Source of the DNA: Methanoculleus oceani | GTDB lineage: Archaea > Halobacteriota > Methanomicrobia > Methanomicrobiales > Methanoculleaceae | Length of the DNA stretch: 64,000 nucleotides | Assembly (NCBI RefSeq): GCF_023702065.1 | Contig: NZ_QFDM01000002.1 | Location: forward strand, 310,001 to 374,000 | Reading direction: 5' to 3' | Part shown: in pieces, positions 47,463-58,589 of the stretch | Position numbering within the stretch: position 1 is the stretch's first letter | How the letters are laid out: every line of letters starts with the position of its first letter | Notes under the pieces: generated by a model | Database searches by the model: none | What the model was told of the DNA's origin: nothing | Seen by the model: the letters and a program-made list of their open reading frames with translations, nothing else | Position numbers and translations under genes: made by a program

Positions 47463-48341
47463 ATGCCTACTATCAGGACGAAAGATAACACCCAGATTTA
47501 CTATAAGGATTGGGGAAGCGGACAGCCGGTGGTCTTCAGTCATGGCTGGCCGCTGAGTTCGGATGCCTGGGAAGACCAGATGATCTTCCTGGCCGACCAT
47601 GGATATCGTTGCATTGCCCATGACCGTCGCGGTCATGGACGATCCGACCAGCCCTGGAACGGGAACGACATGGACACCTACGCGGATGACCTCGCGACCC
47701 TGGTCGAAGCGCTCGACATCAGGGATGCGATCCACATCGGCCATTCCACAGGAGGTGGCGAAGTCGCCCGCTACATCGGTCGCCACGGCACTGACCGTGT
47801 GGCGAAAACTGTGTTGATCGACGCGGTGCCGCCTCATATGCTCAAAACGGCTGCCAACCCCGGCGGGATCCCGATAGAGGCCTTCGATGAGGTCCGTGCT
47901 GCTGTCCTCGCCGACCGTTCGCAGTACTTCAAGGACTTTAGTTCCCCGTTCTATGGTGCCAATCGGCCGGGTTCCAGGGTCTCGCAGGGTCTTCGGGACA
48001 CGTTCTGGCTTCAGAGTGTGACGGCCGGACATAAAGCCGTATACGACTGCATCAAGGCCTTCTCCGAGACTGATTTTACTGAAGACCTCAAGAAGTTCGA
48101 TGTCCCGACCCTCATTATCCACGGCGACGACGATCAGATCGTGCCCATCGGAGTCTCCGCAATGCTTTCATCCAGGATAGTCAGAGGCGCCATTCTCAAA
48201 GTATATCCGGGCGCTCCGCACGGCATCTGTTCGACCCACAAGGACCAGATCAATGCGGATCTGCTCGCGTTCATCAAGGGTGAGAGGGTCCCCGATATAT
48301 CCATGGAGTCCAGGATGGAGCCGGCCGCAGGGGCGAGATAG
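47463..48341 (+). CDS. alpha/beta hydrolase (non-haem chloroperoxidase/esterase type)
   Basis: The 292-residue protein has the cofactor-free haloperoxidase/esterase layout: [23 protein letters not shown] (oxyanion HGW), [13 protein letters not shown], the nucleophile elbow [14 protein letters not shown] (Ser), late Asp in [11 protein letters not shown] and His in PGAPHGIC. The ATG 47463 ([14 protein letters not shown]) is preferred; a GTG at 47454 is in frame. The family is bacterial-rich, so horizontal transfer is likely. Natural substrate is unknown. Confidence 0.88.
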
Positions 48342-48351
48342 AATAATTCAA

Positions 48352-48357
48352 TTTTTT
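48352..48357 (+). terminator. T-run after the hydrolase gene
   Basis: Six T residues in an AT-rich patch 11 bp past the stop codon are consistent with archaeal termination. Confidence 0.4.
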
Positions 48358-48465
48358 GATTCCCTGCCGATTGATAAATGTCTATACTTCAACAAAAGAC
48401 GGTGAAAATGTTAGATGCCTACCTGTGCCCGCTGATCCCCTCGCGACTCTGGATTTCCATGACAA

Positions 48466-48891
48466 TTACGGCACGCCCCATTCTGCCAGCCGCTCCCGCA
48501 CATGCTTATTCAGCGTAAACGATTTCCCGTTCTTCGTGTTCTGCTTCATGTAGTGGAGCGTTCCCTTCGAGAATCCCATCTTCTTCCATTCGGCATACGG
48601 CACATTCAGGATTTTTTGCCGAATCTCATCCGAATCCTGCCGCTCAACCGTATACATAGGAGTCACGAAAGCCGACATCGTCTTCTTGCCAATCAGATAG
48701 TGCGCCAGCTCTCGGGCCTTCAGGAGCATGACGTAGTGCCAGGGGTACTCCTTCCCCAGATACGGCACCGTTTTGTTGAACCAACGGTTCACCTCCCCGG
48801 TAACGTTGCGCGTGCCGGCAACCCGAAGGAAGGCGCTGCATTCAGATTTACGTTCAAAACCGGCCGGGCAAGAAAGCAGAGAAGGATTCAT
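48466..48891 (-). pseudogene. Cas1-like C-terminal remnant
   Basis: The 141-residue frame contains WFNKTVPYLGKEYPWHYVML with LKARELAHYLIGKKT, and later RQKILNVPYAEWKKMGFSKG with TLHYMKQNTKNGKSFTLNKH. This pattern resembles the C-terminal helical end of some CRISPR integrase Cas1 proteins. The catalytic core of Cas1 (a further ~200 residues) is missing, and the first ~35 residues (MNPSLLSCPAGFERKSECSA...) look unrelated and overlap a segment also found at 52.5 kb. I see no array, cas2 or other cas gene nearby. It is probably a relic. The Cas1 assignment is from pattern memory and could be wrong. Confidence 0.4.
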
Positions 48892-48949
48892 TTAACCTAA
48901 CTCACAGTTATTTAATAACCGATAGTTATAATATGAATGAGAATGATGA

Positions 48950-49140
48950 TCCTTTAGTGAAACTGCCTCCGGGCAGAATCCCGGAGATTGCACCTCCCTG
49001 TGGGAGAGGGATGAATCACATGGATTCTCGACGCAAAAGCGAGAATCCTGTAGAAACAGGGGTAGATCGGAAAGGCCCAGGCCAGAGTCCCGTGAGCGTG
49101 AAATCGAATGAAAGGCGTTGAATGTGGAATTCATCCACAA
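48950..49140 (+). ncRNA. candidate structured RNA: run of consecutive hairpins
   Basis: Behind a TATA-like GTTATAATATG (about 48924-48934) come consecutive stems: CTCCGGG/CCCGGAG, CTCCC/GGGAG (loop TGT), GATTCTCG/CGAGAATC, CCTGT/ACAGG (loop AGAA), GGCC/GGCC, and TGTGGA/TCCACA at 49123-49139. Density of perfect stems is far above the surroundings. A 62-residue frame (48933-49121, MNENDDPLVKLPPGRI...) also spans it, so a tnpB-like 3' coding end overlapping an omega-RNA scaffold is one reading. No TnpB gene is present. Boundaries are estimates. Confidence 0.35.
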
Positions 49141-49157
49141 TTGATGGAGTAAATGAA

Positions 49158-49982
49158 ATGAAAACGGAATCCGTGAAACTGGTTTACTTTTCGCCTACTG
49201 GAACGACAAAAGCGGTTGTTTTGGGCATTGCACGCGGATTGAATCCCGCCAACGTGGAATTGCTGGATATTACCCGACCCGATGCGAGAAAACAGCCACT
49301 AAAAACATCGGAAAAAGAACTACTCATTATCGGCGTGCCGGTATATATGGGAAGGGTGCCGGCACTGGTAACCGAATGGCTGCACGCGATGAAAGCCCAA
49401 AATACGCCTGCAGTATGTGTCGTCGTCTATGGTAATCGTGCATATGAAGATGCACTCCTCGAGCTGAAAGATATCCTGGCTAAGTGCGGATGTAAACCGG
49501 TCGCCGGCGCAGCATTTATCGGGGAGCATTCGTTTTCCACCGACGAAACACCGACCGCCGTGGGTCGCCCGGATTCGGGGGACCTGGAACATGCAGAATT
49601 ATTCGGGCAGAAGATATGGGAAAAACTTCAGTCTGTTTCATCAGCCGACCGGATTTCTGAAGTAATAATCCCCGGCTGTCATCCGTATCGGGTAGAGCCG
49701 TGCCATCCTTACCGGAGAGATTCGATATTCTGGAATGTTGATTTCATTGCGGTCAGCGATGCGTGCATACAGTGCGGGATTTGTGCAGAGAGATGCCCTG
49801 TCGGTGCCATCGATCCGGAAAACAGCAGGGCGATCGACACTGAAAACTGCATCACGTGCTGCGCCTGCATCAAACACTGTCCCGAGCATGCGAGAACGAT
49901 GAAACCCGGTCTGGTCAGGGACGCTTCACTGCGCCTTTATACGCTTTATAACGAGCGAAAGGAGCCGGAATACTTCCTGTGA
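49158..49982 (+). CDS. flavodoxin-ferredoxin fusion (EFR1 family)
   Basis: The 274-residue protein joins an N-terminal flavodoxin-like domain (VYFSPTGTTKAVVLGIARGL phosphate loop, IGVPVYMGRVPAL) to a C-terminal two-cluster ferredoxin (CIQCGICAERCPVGAI and CITCCACIKHCPEHA). It should shuttle electrons between flavin and [4Fe-4S] clusters. ATG 49158 (MKTESVKLVYFSPTGTTK), preceded by GATGGAGT, is chosen over 49122. Codon use is less GC-rich than in the housekeeping genes, suggesting acquisition. Partner enzymes are not evident. Confidence 0.9.
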   Translation: MKTESVKLVYFSPTGTTKAVVLGIARGLNPANVELLDITRPDARKQPLKTSEKELLIIGVPVYMGRVPALVTEWLHAMKAQNTPAVCVVVYGNRAYEDALLELKDILAKCGCKPVAGAAFIGEHSFSTDETPTAVGRPDSGDLEHAELFGQKIWEKLQSVSSADRISEVIIPGCHPYRVEPCHPYRRDSIFWNVDFIAVSDACIQCGICAERCPVGAIDPENSRAIDTENCITCCACIKHCPEHARTMKPGLVRDASLRLYTLYNERKEPEYFL

Positions 49983-50041
49983 TGAGCACCACACTTCGGG
50001 CACAAAGGAGAACTTCCACGGATACATACTGAGGATATCAT

Positions 50042-50999: not shown

Positions 51000-51584
51000 A
51001 TGACGAAAGTGATCGCGATCAACGGCAGCCCCCGGAGAGATGGAAACACTTCCATTCTGATGAGACATATCATAGAAGAACTTGAAAAAGAAGGTATCAC
51101 CACTGAAGAAGTGAATCTGGGCGGATGCGTGGCACGGGGATGTACTGCCTGCATGAAATGTCGGGAGAATCAGGACGGACATTGTGTTTTTGACGATGAT
51201 ACCGTCAACACCTGCATCGACAAAATGGTCGAAGCGGATGGGATTATTCTCGGTTCACCGGTGTACTTCCTGGACGTCACGGCCGAGATGAAGGGATTGA
51301 TCGACCGGGCAGGGTTTGTAGCAATGGCCAATAGAGACCTTTTCCAGCGCAAGGTCGGCGTTGCAGTAACCGTAATGCGCAGGGCCGGAGCCACCGCCGC
51401 TCTGAATACGATGATCAACTTCATGGTATTTTCCGGCATGATCATCCCGGGCAAACCCGTTATCGGCCTTGGGAGAGAGATCGGAGCTGTTAATCGGGAT
51501 GAGGAGGGAATCGGGCGTGCCCATGATACCGGAAAGAACATGGCGTGGCTGCTTAAAGCGCTTGAGGCCTCGCGTGAATCATAA
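51000..51584 (+). CDS. iron-sulfur flavoprotein / NADPH-dependent FMN reductase family
   Basis: The 194-residue protein has the FMN-binding loop INGSPRRDGNTSILM, a cysteine cluster GCVARGCTACMKCRENQDGHC (ISF-type C-x2-C-x2-C plus C), and ILGSPVYFLDVTAEMKGLIDR. This is the Isf family of methanogens and anaerobes, reducing O2 or other acceptors with ferredoxin. ATG 51000, preceded by GAGGGATTC, is preferred to 50970. It lies 33 bp before a TetR regulator, which probably controls it. Confidence 0.9.
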   Translation: MTKVIAINGSPRRDGNTSILMRHIIEELEKEGITTEEVNLGGCVARGCTACMKCRENQDGHCVFDDDTVNTCIDKMVEADGIILGSPVYFLDVTAEMKGLIDRAGFVAMANRDLFQRKVGVAVTVMRRAGATAALNTMINFMVFSGMIIPGKPVIGLGREIGAVNRDEEGIGRAHDTGKNMAWLLKALEASRES

Positions 51585-51617
51585 ACCAGAAGACCAGACA
51601 ATAACTGGAGAATCGGG

Positions 51618-52343
51618 ATGGGAATAGCCGATAGACGACAACGAGAAAAGGAACAGCGAAAGACCGAGATCATAGATGCAGCCGAGCGTCTCTTTTTTTC
51701 CCGGAGTTACGAAGATGTTTCCATGGATGATATCGCCCAAGAGGTCGAACTGAATAAGGCTACCATCTATCTGTATTTTAGAAATAAGGAGACACTTTAC
51801 GCTACTATTGTTCTCCGTGGCGTCCAGATCCTCAAGGAAAAATATACGGAATGCATGGAGAAACAGGTTCCCGGAATCGTCAAGGTAGCCCTGATGGGCC
51901 AGGCCTATTATCAGTTCTCACAGGAATACCCCGACTATCTTCGAATGATCCATTTTTACGGTTCTGAGCGTTTTTCCAGAGAGAACCCGTGTACCGCAGA
52001 GATTGGAAAGGGATATGGTACCTGCCGTATGATCCTGGCGGATGCGATCCGGGAGGGTATCGATGACGGCACAATACGAGCCGATCTCGATCCGTTCCTG
52101 ACTTCGATGTATCTTATGATCTCCTTCATGGGTATCCTCTCCATGGAAAACAAATGGAAACTGGTGATCGAGGCGGAAGGGTTCAGTTACGAACAGTTCA
52201 CGAGTGAATTCTTCCGCTTCATTACTCCGGCAATTTCTTCCGGTGAGCAATCTCACAAAATGGATGTCAAGGATTTCCCAGCATCTGGATTCTTTTTAAC
52301 CGGATCTGTGGCACCTGAGAAGAAAAAGGGAGAAAAATCTTAA
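51618..52343 (+). CDS. TetR-family transcriptional regulator
   Basis: The 241-residue protein has the TetR helix-turn-helix in KTEIIDAAERLFFSRSYEDV and DIAQEVELNKATIYLYFRNKETLY, then a helical ligand-binding part. The ATG follows AACTGGAGAATCGGG. It sits 33 bp after the iron-sulfur flavoprotein gene, so it likely represses this two-gene unit in response to an unknown ligand or stress. TetR regulators are mostly bacterial, so transfer is likely. Confidence 0.9.
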   Translation: MGIADRRQREKEQRKTEIIDAAERLFFSRSYEDVSMDDIAQEVELNKATIYLYFRNKETLYATIVLRGVQILKEKYTECMEKQVPGIVKVALMGQAYYQFSQEYPDYLRMIHFYGSERFSRENPCTAEIGKGYGTCRMILADAIREGIDDGTIRADLDPFLTSMYLMISFMGILSMENKWKLVIEAEGFSYEQFTSEFFRFITPAISSGEQSHKMDVKDFPASGFFLTGSVAPEKKKGEKS

Positions 52344-52850: not shown

Positions 52851-55241
52851 ATGGCGATCCTGCCGGACGGGGCTGGCCGTATGCAGACCACTGAGCCGGA
52901 CATGGAGGTGCGACCCGAGATACTGCAGGTACTGGATGCCATGGAGGATGCCGTCATCCTCGCCGATTCCGACATGAACGTCCGCACCATCACCCCTTCC
53001 ATGGAGTGCCTCGCCGGGATCTCCGCCGATGACGCCCGCGGTGCGGATGCGGCCCGCCTCGTCGCCGACCGAATCCTCCCGGAAGCGGATGGAGACCAGA
53101 GGGAGCGGATCCTCTCGCTGCTGCAGAACCGCACCGGGTCCGGGGAGATCACGGTCAGGGTATCCTCGGCCGCCGGGGAGCGGTGGTACGTCTTCTCCTC
53201 CCGGCAGGTGTTGGCGACCGGGGACTGGCTCGTCCGCTTCCGCGACGTCACCCGCCGGGAGGCCGCAAAAGGAGAGGTGCGGCGGAGATCGGACGATCTG
53301 GCCTTCCTCTCCCGGGCGGCGACGGAACTTGCCGGGATGCCGGACGAGGCCGACGTCTTCTCCGCCATCGGGGCCTACCTCCATGAACTCGCGCCCGGTT
53401 CCGTCGTCATCGTGAGCGCCGCCGATATCCGGGCGGGCACCCTGAGCCCGCGGGCGTTCTTCGGCATCGAGCCGTTCCTGCCGGACATCACCGAGACCTT
53501 CGGGGAGGACCTCACCAGGCTCTCGCTCGAAATCCCCCCGCATATCCGGGCAATCATGACCCGCGGCGAGATCGAGGAGGTGAAAGGAGGGCTGCAGGAA
53601 GTCGCCCTCGGGCAGATCTCGCAGGAGATCTGCCGTAAATTCGAGGCTATTGCCGGCCTCGGCGCAATGTACTGCATTCCATTCACCTGGAAAGGCGAAA
53701 TCTTCGGGTCGGCCGTGATCCTCACCCGGTGGGAGGGTGGAGAGGTCAATTTCCGGGTCGTCGAGGTCTTCCGGAGCCTTGCTTCGATCGCCCTCCAGCG
53801 GCACCGGGCGGAGGCCGACCTGCGAGGGAGCGAAAAGACGTTCCGGGCTCTCATCGAGAAGGGCTCCGAGTTCATCCTCGTCATCGACGAGCAGTTAACG
53901 ATCCGGTTTGCGAGCCCGCCTATCGAGCGGTTGGACGGGTTTCCACCCGAGACGCTGATCGGGAGGCATGCGTTCGATATGATCCAGCCCGAGGATCTGC
54001 CGCGGGTGAAGGAGGTGGTATCGACCCTGGCAGAGAGGCCGGGAGGGAGCGTGCAGTTCGAGGTCCGCTTCAGGGGCCCGCGCGGCACGCACGTGATCGA
54101 GGCAAGCGTGACCAACCTCCTTGACGACCCCCACATCAGGGGCTTTGTCGTGAACGCATGGGACATCACGGAGCGAAAGCGGACCGAAGAGGCCCTGCGC
54201 CGGGCAGAACGGGAAAAAGCCCTTATTCTTGACTCGACTGTCGAGATGTTTACCTACTACGACACGGATCTCAGGGTGCTCTGGGTCAACCGCGCCGCCG
54301 CCGCATTCATCGGCAGGGAACCGGAGGACCTGGTCGGGCACCGGTGCTACGAGATATGGCACAACCGTACAGGTGTCTGCGATATATGCCCCGTCGTTAT
54401 TGCCCGGGAGACCGGACAGCCTCAGGAGGCCGAGATCACCACTCCCGATGGAAGGATCTTTCTCCTCCGGGGGTATCCCGTCACCGACGAGACGGGGGAG
54501 ATTGTCGGTCTGATCGAGTTCGCGCAGGATATCACCGACCGCAAGCAGGCCGAGGATGAACGGGCCCGGCTCCTCCACGCTCTGGAGGTCGCAAACCGTG
54601 AGGCGAACCTGTACCTGGACATCCTCACGCACGACATCAGGAACGCCAACTGCGTCGCCACCCTGTATACCGACCTGCTGATGCAGGTCCTGAAAGGAGA
54701 GCCCAAGATGTATGTCCGGAAGATGAAGGGGAGCATCGATAAAAGTACGGAGATTCTGGCGAATGTTGCAATGATCCGCAAAATTCATCTGGAACACGCG
54801 CCGTTGAAGCCGATCGACCTTCACGGCGTGATCGTCAGCGAACAAAAGAACTTCCCCGAAGCCGAGATCAGGTACGGGGGGGTCTCTCGCGTGGTCCGGG
54901 CGGACGATCTCCTTGCCGAAGTCTTCCACAACCTCATCGGGAATGCCGTCAAATTCGGCGGCCCCGACGTCGTTATTACCATCTCGGTCGAGACGCTCGA
55001 CGGCAGCGTCGTCGTCACCGTGGCCGACACCGGCCCCGGCGTTCCCGACGAACTGAAGGAGTCGATCTTCCGTCGGTTCGAACGAGGGCGGACCCGGGCA
55101 CGGGGGGAGGGGCTCGGCCTCTATATCTGCCGCACGCTCCTGGAGCGTTACGGTGGGCGCATCTGGGTCGAGGATCGGGTGACCGGTCACCCGGAAGCGG
55201 GCGCTGCGTTCCGGTTCACGCTCAAGGAGGTTGTGGAATGA
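52851..55241 (+). CDS. PAS/GAF sensor histidine kinase
   Basis: The 796-residue soluble kinase has an N-terminal PAS (VLDAMEDAVILADSDMNVRT), a GAF-like domain (about 170-325), a second PAS (FILVIDEQLTIRFASPPIERLDGFPPETLIGR), a third PAS with VLWVNRAAAAFIGREPEDLVGHRCYEIW and a C-x2-C pair nearby (CDIC), and a HisKA-like helix LDILTHDIRNANCVATLYTD with His594. The ATPase has N-box HNLIGNAVKFGG and G-boxes DTGPGVPDELKESIF and GEGLGLYICRTLLERYGG. There are no membrane helices, so it senses a cytoplasmic signal. No response regulator is adjacent. Start 52851 has GAGGATC upstream; Met at 52881 is an alternative. Confidence 0.92.
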   Translation: MAILPDGAGRMQTTEPDMEVRPEILQVLDAMEDAVILADSDMNVRTITPSMECLAGISADDARGADAARLVADRILPEADGDQRERILSLLQNRTGSGEITVRVSSAAGERWYVFSSRQVLATGDWLVRFRDVTRREAAKGEVRRRSDDLAFLSRAATELAGMPDEADVFSAIGAYLHELAPGSVVIVSAADIRAGTLSPRAFFGIEPFLPDITETFGEDLTRLSLEIPPHIRAIMTRGEIEEVKGGLQEVALGQISQEICRKFEAIAGLGAMYCIPFTWKGEIFGSAVILTRWEGGEVNFRVVEVFRSLASIALQRHRAEADLRGSEKTFRALIEKGSEFILVIDEQLTIRFASPPIERLDGFPPETLIGRHAFDMIQPEDLPRVKEVVSTLAERPGGSVQFEVRFRGPRGTHVIEASVTNLLDDPHIRGFVVNAWDITERKRTEEALRRAEREKALILDSTVEMFTYYDTDLRVLWVNRAAAAFIGREPEDLVGHRCYEIWHNRTGVCDICPVVIARETGQPQEAEITTPDGRIFLLRGYPVTDETGEIVGLIEFAQDITDRKQAEDERARLLHALEVANREANLYLDILTHDIRNANCVATLYTDLLMQVLKGEPKMYVRKMKGSIDKSTEILANVAMIRKIHLEHAPLKPIDLHGVIVSEQKNFPEAEIRYGGVSRVVRADDLLAEVFHNLIGNAVKFGGPDVVITISVETLDGSVVVTVADTGPGVPDELKESIFRRFERGRTRARGEGLGLYICRTLLERYGGRIWVEDRVTGHPEAGAAFRFTLKEVVE

Positions 55242-55305
55242 TCGGGGAGTCCTCGCCGGAAGCAGTCGGTCGGAGAGCAATGCAACTCGTGTGACAGAGG
55301 GAACA

Positions 55306-55518
55306 ATGATGTCCGAGCAGCAGAACGAAGAACAGCGTCTTTTCACAGCCCTTGACGGAGAAGACGACGGCATCTTCGTGTTCGATGAGGACCGGACGGT
55401 GGTCTCCCTGCAGAGGGTCACTGTAGACCTGCAGAACAACAGGAGCATCCGCCGGGCGCAGCGGGAAATACGGGCACTGTTACCCTTTGACAGAATTGTG
55501 CAACACAGCACGCTATGA
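55306..55518 (+). CDS. 70-residue hypothetical protein at an island edge
   Basis: MMSEQQNEEQRLFTALDGED begins a small acidic protein; DDGIFVFDEDRTVVSLQR looks like a beta-hairpin, and IRRAQREIRALLPF like a helix. GACAGAGGGAAC precedes it and it starts 64 bp after the kinase, so co-transcription is possible. The last residues (RIVQHSTL) run into a palindrome and the AT-rich island, so the original C-terminus may be lost. The family is not recognised. Confidence 0.45.
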   Translation: MMSEQQNEEQRLFTALDGEDDGIFVFDEDRTVVSLQRVTVDLQNNRSIRRAQREIRALLPFDRIVQHSTL

Positions 55519-55533
55519 GCCTTTGGCTCATAG
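55513..55533. repeat. 9-bp perfect hairpin at the GC/AT boundary
   Basis: CTATGAGCC, loop TTT, GGCTCATAG. It lies where GC-rich sequence gives way to the AT-rich island and overlaps the last codons of the small gene. It may be a terminator or the end of an inserted segment. Confidence 0.6.
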
Positions 55534-55893
55534 AGGGGACCAAAAACGATAATCTGATGAATTCTGGTTTTTAACGTAATGCTTCACAAGGGTATGAGAT
55601 GCTTTTCATACCATCAGTTTCATTTCTGCTGTACGTTTCTCAAGCCTCAGTTCTTCACTAATTTTAGAAGGCGAAAATAGTCCACCATACCGGGAAACCA
55701 TCACAAAAACGAAAGATCTATAAGGGTTGCAGGCGTCCCTTCATGCACTTTGGCCAAAAGAAGGGGGACTCCTGCGGGAAGAAGAGCCACCCTGAATCAA
55801 TAGATTGACAATTAATCGTATTGGCTTGACGGATTATTGGAATGGAAAGGTATAACCGCACATTTTATAATATAAGCCCCGGTAATTGAATGT
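55534..55893. other. 360-bp AT-rich leader region of the island
   Basis: Apart from the promoter near its end I see no coding frame or RNA fold. Composition changes from the GC-rich background to clearly AT-rich here. Confidence 0.4.
55864..55874 (+). promoter_or_regulatory. TATA box of the AT-rich island genes
   Basis: TTTATAATATA lies 20-30 bp before the ATG at 55894, predicting a leaderless bicistronic transcript. Confidence 0.5.
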
Positions 55894-56817
55894 ATGGAGC
55901 AACGCGATCCATATAGCCATATTATCAAATATCTAGGCCTTGAGGGGAATAATCAATTAATTGACAGCTTAAAATCAAAAATTTCGTCAATACAGGAGAC
56001 CTATTATAAGAGCGATTTCAATTCTTACGATTATGATGATCCTCTCTTCCAAGCAGCATATCTGATGGCATACTATCCTCTATATATAGACCCTATTCAA
56101 GATGCGCTTTGGACTGCATCACACCCACAGGCCTTTTATATTGATGGGAGTATGAAAGATAAATTAGGTTGGGAGGGAAAAGTAAATCTAGACGTATCAA
56201 TTTATGGTGGTGGAGCGGAACCTGAACTATTAGGATTGTTGAAATTCATTAATCAAAAGTATCCTTTGATAAGGGCAGTCAGATCCCATTACATCGACAA
56301 TCATAACTGGGAAAATTTTAGAGCGCACGCATACACGAATATGGTTCCGGATTATTGGAGAGGAGATTTCATTCCAGGCAATACAGTGATATCAAACCTC
56401 GGAAGCATCTTTAATAATGATGATGCGATGAGTATTTTACAAAATTCTGATGTACATGTAATGCAAAATTGTGCAACAGATCTAATGCATTCCTTCCAAA
56501 GTGTGGACCGATATGTTAGTTTTATGCATCGTTGTTTTAACAGTATGAAGGAAGGATCAATTTTGATTGGAATTGATGTGCCCTTATTTGACATTCCTCT
56601 ACCATCAAATCCATCAGAAGTTATTGATGTTCGAGGAAGCTTCAATAGGATCGCTAAGAATATAAGAGATAGTCCTAAAGGAACGATCATTAAAAGCCCA
56701 TCCACCGGAGCACCTAAGGCGATTGCCCCAGACATATGTAGAGACCATCCATTAGTATCTAGTTTTAACTTGAAGCGAACAGTAAAATATCATTCATTTA
56801 TTGCTAAAAGGGTGTGA
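55894..56817 (+). CDS. Rossmann-fold methyltransferase-like protein
   Basis: The 307-residue protein has a class I SAM-methyltransferase-like motif I, DVSIYGGGAEPELLGLL (residues 100-116), and a later strand-helix VHVMQNCATDLMHSFQSVDRY and FMHRCFNSMKEGSILIGIDVP, which fits the motif IV-post region. An N-terminal helical part (1-80) precedes the fold. The target is unknown. The gene is AT-rich, unlike its neighbours, and the next gene starts 7 bp later, so both form one transcript. I cannot name the family. The methyltransferase call rests on motif I and the fold pattern. Confidence 0.65.
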   Translation: MEQRDPYSHIIKYLGLEGNNQLIDSLKSKISSIQETYYKSDFNSYDYDDPLFQAAYLMAYYPLYIDPIQDALWTASHPQAFYIDGSMKDKLGWEGKVNLDVSIYGGGAEPELLGLLKFINQKYPLIRAVRSHYIDNHNWENFRAHAYTNMVPDYWRGDFIPGNTVISNLGSIFNNDDAMSILQNSDVHVMQNCATDLMHSFQSVDRYVSFMHRCFNSMKEGSILIGIDVPLFDIPLPSNPSEVIDVRGSFNRIAKNIRDSPKGTIIKSPSTGAPKAIAPDICRDHPLVSSFNLKRTVKYHSFIAKRV

Positions 56818-56824
56818 TAAATAA

Positions 56825-57874
56825 ATGTCAAATAGCACTTGGCCAAAAAGCATAACTAAGGTTAGGATACGGGGTTCTGATAGAAGTGTTCCATCTATAT
56901 CTCCTCCGATATTATCGGTAAGCAGATCGACTGATATTCCAGCATTCTATTCAGAATGGTTTATCGAACGGTTACACAAAGGTTACTCAGTCTGGCTCAA
57001 CCCAATGAATCAGAAGCCTCAGGTTATCAACTTTGAAAATGCTAAATTCATTGTTTTTTGGACAAAAAATGCCTCTTCCATGCTGAAGCACTTATCAGAC
57101 ATTGACAATATGGATATCAGATATTATTTCCAATATGCGGTAAATAATTATGAGAGAGAAGGTTTCGAATCAAATCTCCCCCCACTATCTGAGAGAATTG
57201 CCTCATTTATCGAGTTATCAAAAGTTATTGGAAAAGAGAAAGTAATTTGGAGATTTGATCCCCTCATTCTATCAAATGATATTACTATTGATTCCTTACT
57301 TGAAAACGTAAAAACAGTCGGTGATGCTCTCCATCAATACACAGAAAAACTTGTAATAAGCTTTGTTGATATCAACCCCTATACAAGAGTAAGAAATAAT
57401 TTGAATAATGCTAATTATGAAGATGTTCGTGAATTTACCGAGAATGAGATGAGGATGTTCAGTGAAAAGCTTGCTCAGATGAATGAAGAATGGGGATTAC
57501 AGATTTCGACTTGTGGTGAAATTATCGATTTATCTGATTTTGACATCATGCATAACAGATGCATTGATCCTGAGTTGATAAGAAGAATATGTTCCGACAT
57601 GCCCGCCTTTCTTACTTATATCAATGAGCATTCAAATAAGGACAAAGGTCAGCGTAATTCCTGTGGTTGTATTCCAAGTAAAGATATTGGTCAATATAAT
57701 ACTTGCATGCATCAATGTACATATTGCTATGCAAATCATTTCTCTAAAACTGTGGAAAATAACTACCAAAGCCATCTCAAGTCCATTGACTCTCCCACAA
57801 TAAACGGATCTAACAGTTGGGAAAGATACTTCCTCAATGAGAAAACAGAACAGTTATCTTTCGACAGGTTTTAA
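56825..57874 (+). CDS. DUF1848 protein with C-terminal radical-SAM-like cysteine motif
   Basis: The 349-residue protein has the DUF1848 start pattern (ILSVSRSTDIPAFYSEWFIE, NFENAKFIVFWTKNASSMLKHL, VIWRFDPLILSNDIT) and a C-terminal cysteine block: NSCGCIPSKDIGQYNT, then CMHQCTYCYANHF with C294-x3-C298-x2-C301. That spacing and the aromatic residue before the last cysteine match the radical-SAM cluster motif, but here it is at the end rather than the start of the barrel. Pfam notes the same resemblance for DUF1848. Function is unknown. It is co-transcribed with the methyltransferase-like gene. Confidence 0.85.
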   Translation: MSNSTWPKSITKVRIRGSDRSVPSISPPILSVSRSTDIPAFYSEWFIERLHKGYSVWLNPMNQKPQVINFENAKFIVFWTKNASSMLKHLSDIDNMDIRYYFQYAVNNYEREGFESNLPPLSERIASFIELSKVIGKEKVIWRFDPLILSNDITIDSLLENVKTVGDALHQYTEKLVISFVDINPYTRVRNNLNNANYEDVREFTENEMRMFSEKLAQMNEEWGLQISTCGEIIDLSDFDIMHNRCIDPELIRRICSDMPAFLTYINEHSNKDKGQRNSCGCIPSKDIGQYNTCMHQCTYCYANHFSKTVENNYQSHLKSIDSPTINGSNSWERYFLNEKTEQLSFDRF

Positions 57875-57979
57875 GCGAAAAAGTATAAGAATAGACGGCA
57901 GATTCCAGGAATTTGTACTGCCGAAACGTCGAAAAGAGAGAGTATCATAAAAGAATCAACGCTCCGGGAGATTGTGTTC

Positions 57980-58088
57980 ATGGAAAAGATAACTACCGTC
58001 ATGATCGTGTTAGTTTCGCCTGCCTGTGCGTGCTCGCCGCCGGATGCGCAGGTGACTCAGGGAGTGTCAGCACACCACCAACCGCCCG
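57980..58088 (+). pseudogene. broken lipoprotein signal sequence
   Basis: ATG 57980 begins MEKITTVMIVLVS, and a different frame continues FACLCVLAAGCAGDSGSVST, a near-perfect lipobox (LAAGC). Joining them needs a one-base shift near 58018. In the actual frame the sequence goes on SPACACSPPDAQ and stops about 100 bp later. It looks like the remains of a lipoprotein gene just before the YkgJ gene. Confidence 0.4.
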
Positions 58089-58589
58089 GTGCTCAGGGAG
58101 GGGGCCACCATCGCCGGTAAGTGCTGCCGGTGCGGCAGCTGTTGCAGCCACATGCGGGACGTCCACAGGGTTATCGAAGAGCGTGGCAACAACACGTTTG
58201 TCGTGCACAACCACTACACCGGGGATGCAGAAGAGGTGCGGGTCGATCCGGACAAGATCGCCCTCTTCGAGGATGAGAGCAGCATCGAGGGACTGCCGAA
58301 CGCATGCCCCTTTCTGAGATTCGATGCAAAGGCCGGAAAGGCATGGTGTACGGTCCACCTGACACGCCCCGACCTCTGCCGCGAATACTGCTGCCGCCTG
58401 CTCGTCCTTGATGCACAGGGGAAGCTGGCGGGACGTGTGACGTATCAGACAGCGCTGATTCCGGACACTGACGAGCTCGGCCGGCTCTGGGAGGAGGTGC
58501 AACCGACGTTGAACGGGCTCTCCGGCACGGAATGGGACGACGCCTTCATCGAGATCCTCACGGCAGCCGGATACAGGGTTCGCCGGTAG
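58089..58589 (+). CDS. YkgJ-family cysteine-cluster protein
   Basis: The 166-residue protein has KCCRCGSCCSHM near the N-terminus, then CPFLRF, WCTVH, and DLCREYCCRLLVL, the YkgJ (CxxCxxCC ... C ... C) zinc/iron-cluster pattern. Start is uncertain: GTG 58089 is the first in-frame start, and it falls inside the broken lipoprotein region. Function of the family is unknown. A terminator hairpin lies between it and the converging hydrolase. Confidence 0.82.
   Translation: MLREGATIAGKCCRCGSCCSHMRDVHRVIEERGNNTFVVHNHYTGDAEEVRVDPDKIALFEDESSIEGLPNACPFLRFDAKAGKAWCTVHLTRPDLCREYCCRLLVLDAQGKLAGRVTYQTALIPDTDELGRLWEEVQPTLNGLSGTEWDDAFIEILTAAGYRVRR

Follow-up and report, generated by a model that had tools for sequence, protein, structure and literature searches.

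An AT-rich island in Methanoculleus oceani pairs a methyltransferase-fold protein with DUF1848, a possible oxygen-independent counterpart of AlkB

The window analyzed here (64,000 nucleotides of Methanoculleus oceani, NZ_QFDM01000002.1:310,001-374,000) contains an AT-rich island with two co-directional genes that, as originally predicted, lie 7 bp apart (Table 1). The start first noted for this region, 55519, falls 375 bp ahead of gene 1, right behind the stop of the preceding open reading frame, and the interval 55519-55893 is intergenic. An Rfam scan of 55200-58200 found no RNA family.

Table 1. Features of the two-gene island, in window coordinates
Feature	Position	Strand	Remarks
Foreign AT-rich block	55460..58075	.	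38% GC; absent from congeners; flank matches end at 55459 and 58076
TATA-like box TTTATAATATAAG	55864-55876	+	Upstream of the gene 1 ATG; read by eye; putative function
Gene 1	55894..56817	+	307 aa; predicted class I SAM-methyltransferase fold; DUF1848 partner
Altered SAM-binding motif I, IYGGGAEPE	56200..56226	+	From family alignments; most archaeal relatives have GCGPAPE
Gene 2	56825..57874	+	DUF1848, 349 aa; barrel with a cysteine motif at the C-terminus
C230	57512..57514	+	First of four further invariant cysteines; from alignment
C246	57560..57562	+	Second of four further invariant cysteines; from alignment
C280-x-C282	57662..57670	+	Third and fourth further invariant cysteines; from alignment
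C294-x3-C298-x-Y300-C301	57704..57727	+	C-terminal motif of the radical-SAM [4Fe-4S] type; without exception in 58 aligned DUF1848 proteins

The composition of the island does not match that of its host. An AT-rich block in a GC-rich chromosome had been described, and the GC content of gene 1 (37.3%) and gene 2 (35.6%) does fall far below the replicon mean of 62.0% (SD 4.9%, 441 one-kb windows sampled); none of these background windows goes down to 37.8%, and both genes lie below all of them. Milder dips to 50-51% GC occur at window positions 48001-50000 and 51001-52000, near genes for a ferredoxin-type protein, an FMN reductase, and a TetR regulator.

The flanks of the block match congeners at about 85-92%, whereas the block itself is missing there. 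At one congener locus only about 110 bp separate the equivalents of window positions 55250 and 58076, compared with about 2.8 kb in the window, and another congener carries different DNA at the island site; these matching flanks without the block indicate insertion in a variable site. DUF1848 is listed in no genome of the genus except that of M. oceani, which fits horizontal gain of the island. The flanks were searched and show no repeats of note and no nearby tRNA. Other genes near the pair encode hydrolases, a Fer4 protein, a NUDIX protein, an FMN reductase, a TetR regulator, a histidine kinase, a STAS protein, and one protein without a match; profiling of the neighboring proteins revealed no reverse transcriptase, helicase, or nuclease beside the pair.

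Gene 1 matches no family above cut-off in Pfam, NCBIfam, PADLOC, or PHROGs (the best Pfam match, Methyltransf_34, has E=0.03 and lies below cut-off), and PDB sequence searches with gene 1, gene 2, and profiles found no relatives. A Rossmann-type class I SAM-methyltransferase fold is well supported by an AF2 model made from eight relatives (pLDDT 88.9, pTM 0.89). Foldseek matched this model best to NRMT2 (E=6.7e-8, probability 1.0) and returned 111 matches under 1e-3; nearly all of the 50 best PDB matches are class I SAM methyltransferases. The first protein is thus predicted to have the SAM fold expected of it, but the SAM-methyltransferase motif I by which it had been recognized is altered, GGGAEPE being a weak form of GxGxG. 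Nearly all aligned members of the gene 1 family retain an N-terminal Y-x5-Q-x-AY-x3-Y-x-P-x-Y signature and a Q-N motif. Rsm22-like archaeal methyltransferases (PF09243) are weak profile relatives (E down to 2e-11) that have an FPxY helix and a QNxxNEL motif in common with gene 1; they differ in having a standard DIGSGPG motif I and extra domains.

Gene 2 certainly belongs to DUF1848 (PF08902; E=3e-93, 312.9 bits against a gathering score of 30.5), a family with no assigned function, and matches the model over its full length (positions 1-262 of 262). Seven cysteines (C230, C246, C280, C282, C294, C298, and C301) are invariant across 58 diverse aligned members of the family, and gene 2 has all of them. 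The last three form the C-terminal C-x3-C-x2-C motif with an aromatic residue before the final cysteine that was reported from the sequence, Y300 being the aromatic residue; the other four possibly hold a second Fe-S cluster. We take it that the Pfam family note for DUF1848 already likens the C-terminal cysteines to those of radical-SAM proteins.

Whether this motif marks a permuted radical-SAM protein was approached through profiles and structure. The Radical_SAM profile gives no whole-domain match to native gene 2 (E=0.4), and rotated DUF1848 sequences give weak matches in five of seven members (best E=5e-4, with the cut-off unmet in the member shown). The spore photoproduct lyase (SPL)/PA0069-like proteins of the COG1533 group have CxxxCxYC in common with DUF1848, but their cysteine motif is N-terminal and that of DUF1848 C-terminal; DUF1848 has four extra invariant cysteines, and the whole-length homology is weak. 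The DUF1848 profile was compared with ten such proteins both in its native order and with the cysteine end rotated ahead of the barrel. In native order the score was 58.0, with the alignment confined to the cysteine motif; after rotation it was 81.5, with the barrel motifs TKN/TKS and EPxxP aligning in order. Column-shuffled barrels reached at most 62.4 in the rotated arrangement, and the barrel alone scored 36.5 against a column-shuffled maximum of 19.5. Shuffling in 20-column blocks gave a median of 65.5 and a maximum of 88.4, above the observed score, which weakens the permutation claim. The AF2 model of gene 2 is confident (pLDDT 93.9, pTM 0.92) and resembles TIM barrels, but no radical-SAM entry appears among the top 50 matches of Foldseek, an aligner that follows sequence order. 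The permuted signature of the original prediction is thus favored by profile alignment after rotation without being settled by it, and DUF1848 is likely, although unproven, to be a circularly permuted relative of SPL-type radical-SAM proteins.

The association of the two genes recurs. The gene 1 family is present in six of 200 relatives' genomes and in one Cloacimonadota bin, with eight copies in these seven genomes, and DUF1848 adjoins all eight; a neighborhood survey, proposed as a check of the pairing, therefore finds that the two genes regularly co-occur. A UvrD-type helicase gene lies upstream of the pair at three archaeal loci, one of which adjoins DndCDE and GmrSD genes. Viral contigs searched for the gene 1 family itself yielded none, but nine phage or prophage loci, some of them near-copies of each other, have a gene of a partner family related to it (hhalign probability 96%, E=2e-9; profile matches of 6e-7 to 6e-5) immediately upstream of DUF1848. 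A second methyltransferase family with no detectable relation to that of gene 1 (hhalign 0.9%) adjoins DUF1848 in gut phage contigs, where it is mostly fused to helicase domains. Searching with individual members of the phage partner family or of this unrelated family added no further contigs. In the DUF1848 tree the paired copies fall into more than one clade, and the window protein sits among unpaired chromosomal ones, so that the pairing arose more than once (at least two origins) or partners were swapped.

DUF1848 itself is found in only 88 of 199 relatives' genomes, and many of the chromosomal genes lack a methyltransferase partner and are situated beside tRNA or rRNA genes. Conserved spots for stand-alone copies are the argS-taw1-SepRS cluster and ksgA (both named by eye from sequence) or an ADP-ribosylglycohydrolase gene, leaving room for a role in RNA.

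Several other neighborhoods were recorded. In one relative (G182; L012:4758-7253) the gene immediately downstream of the cassette encodes a DEAD helicase with an MrfA-type zinc-binding domain, and a second DUF1848 copy in another is split into two adjoining open frames and is probably a broken gene (G172:C18:108747-109618). On the plasmid of Roseburia 831b, DUF1848 comes directly after genes for a Sir2 family protein and a protein-ADP-ribose hydrolase (L069:5022-6918). One methanogen lineage has DUF1848 between acetyltransferase-like and zinc-finger genes at five loci (L123, L126, L130, L132, and L133), with an ADP-ribosylglycohydrolase gene nearby (PF03747, E=5e-37 in L126). At locus L151 (G059:C44), the DUF1848 gene is followed after about 160 bp by a gene for an SPL/PA0069-like radical-SAM protein. 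Seven phage contigs (L100, L102-L105, L107, and L108) have a conserved small protein upstream of DUF1848, mostly with a 4-bp overlap, and most have ParB-like genes downstream. In most members of another phage group (L077, L080, L082, L083, and L106) a conserved 109-aa protein overlaps the DUF1848 start, and one DUF1848 gene lies on a 673-kb viral contig, apparently of a jumbo phage (L084).

On cyanobacterial plasmids, members of the gene 1 family are found directly downstream of AlkB in three distinct contexts on four plasmid types: Synechocystis 6803 and 6714 (same synteny), Picosynechococcus 7117, and Planktothrix, where AlkB and the gene 1 homolog are followed by DUF1848 on the opposite strand. 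The second methyltransferase family is in turn followed by AlkB within 10 bp (PF13532, E=9e-31) on plasmids of the aerobe Moraxella osloensis. This case comes down to a single locus, present on two plasmids from the same strain; its neighbors were examined after the AlkB idea had formed, which makes it a small independent test. The same plasmids also encode a prokaryotic viperin (L174:1745-2671).

AlkB dioxygenases (PF13532) thus occupy the same gene slot as DUF1848 beside two unrelated methyltransferase families, an exchange that suggests for DUF1848 a role equivalent to that of AlkB but independent of oxygen. The two differ in domain and cofactor, AlkB requiring oxygen, iron, and 2-oxoglutarate; neither window protein matches PF13532, so the gene slot alone is held in common. 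No AlkB was found in 150 methanogen genomes of the archaeal order, M. oceani included. One DUF1848 gene lies directly behind an O6-methylguanine transferase gene. The AlkB of Synechocystis plasmid pSYSA, slr7097 (sis1), has been tested on methylated single-stranded DNA and RNA phages: in alkB-minus Escherichia coli it raised the survival of MMS-treated M13 about 8-fold and of MMS-treated MS2 about 7-fold, and it left MMS mutagenesis uncorrected (PMC3265494). Judging from the locus-tag series and the AlkB annotation there, slr7097 is probably the AlkB gene beside the gene 1 homolog on pSYSA.

The island may therefore be a mobile two-gene module that handles alkylated or methylated bases of DNA or RNA. 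The gene 1 protein would bind nucleic acid and perhaps SAM; a C-terminal [4Fe-4S] cluster in DUF1848 would, with SAM, generate a 5′-deoxyadenosyl radical, which would attack an alkyl group on a base that is damaged or modified; the outcome that AlkB obtains by means of oxygen and 2-oxoglutarate would in this way be reached without oxygen. We infer the radical chemistry, the substrate, and the direction of the reaction, and repair, removal of a mark, and a second modification step would all look alike in sequence. We give a little less than an even chance to a module for nucleic-acid dealkylation (repair or de-modification) with DUF1848 as an oxygen-independent stand-in for AlkB. The TIM-barrel rather than radical-SAM matches of the DUF1848 model, the weak Radical_SAM scores, the block-shuffled controls, the uncorrected MMS mutagenesis with slr7097, the single Moraxella locus, and the many DUF1848 genes without a methyltransferase partner speak against this reading. 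More tentative is the fuller proposal that DUF1848 is a circularly permuted radical-SAM counterpart of AlkB that dealkylates DNA or RNA in anaerobes, together with methyltransferase-fold partners that join AlkB in aerobes.

The original prediction saw in the pair a modification or defense cassette, and the presence of a SAM fold beside a radical-SAM-like protein stands. A modification cassette, in which the methyltransferase would methylate a base and AlkB or DUF1848 would then functionalize the methyl group to give hypermodified RNA or DNA, is credible but rather unlikely. A methyltransferase with an oxidizing or radical enzyme suits such sequential chemistry, as in ALKBH8, whose two domains (for their layout see PMC3265494) work one after the other on the wobble uridine of tRNA; ALKBH8/Trm9 resembles the pair in that a methyltransferase works with an AlkB-type enzyme, but it is a eukaryotic tRNA wobble modification system, and the likeness is one of function. 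The stand-alone DUF1848 genes beside tRNA and rRNA genes would also suit modification, whereas the helicases, and in some relatives nuclease domains, that accompany the pair suit DNA handling, and the AlkB partners resemble repair-type AlkB by eye (WHxDDE, PRxNLTFR). The AlkB swap beside two unrelated methyltransferase families, together with the one O6-methylguanine transferase neighbor, points to dealkylation more than to the building of a modification. Anti-phage defense, in which DUF1848 and a helicase would join a sensor or modifier of methyltransferase fold to act on invading nucleic acid, appears a shade less probable still. DndCDE, GmrSD, a CARF-domain protein, and type III-B CRISPR genes lie near relatives of the pair, the neighboring helicases match PADLOC helicase models, the distribution is sporadic and mobile, and the PADLOC model RTasDUF1848 (DRT-associated DUF1848) matches gene 2 with E=3.8e-40; but the pair in the window has no reverse transcriptase nearby and no adjoining helicase or nuclease, phages themselves encode DUF1848, and repair genes travel in such islands too.

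That the genes form a writer/eraser or toxin-antitoxin-like pair, gene 1 setting a methyl mark that AlkB or DUF1848 takes off, is improbable: adjacency, mobility, and a methyltransferase fold with a demethylase-type partner would all agree with it, and both AlkB and DUF1848 suit the eraser slot, but the deviation of motif I from GxGxG, the lack of a known mark, and the DUF1848 genes of Roseburia and others without gene 1 count against it. Least credible by far is that the two are chance neighbors on a mobile island with no common function. The position of the window protein among unpaired chromosomal copies and the multiple origins of pairing would allow this, but adjacency at every archaeal and Cloacimonadota copy, the involvement of other methyltransferase families, and repeated pairing across DUF1848 lineages argue for selection, and recurrence largely refutes it.

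The superfamilies concerned are known, and neither the pairing nor the exchange of AlkB and DUF1848 was found described in the literature searched. No paper naming DUF1848 was retrieved, and targeted searches turned up nothing on a radical-SAM enzyme that substitutes for AlkB, subscription journals lying outside the coverage of both. The DUF1848 family is here tied to methyltransferase-fold partners and to an exchange with AlkB. AlkB depends on oxygen for its direct reversal of N-alkyl base damage, which raises the question of how anaerobes treat such lesions. If the dealkylation proposal is true, a radical-SAM enzyme in the slot of AlkB would be an answer for anaerobes that could be checked with one purified protein, and it would give a function to a family that is widespread among the relatives of M. 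oceani and in many phage contigs.
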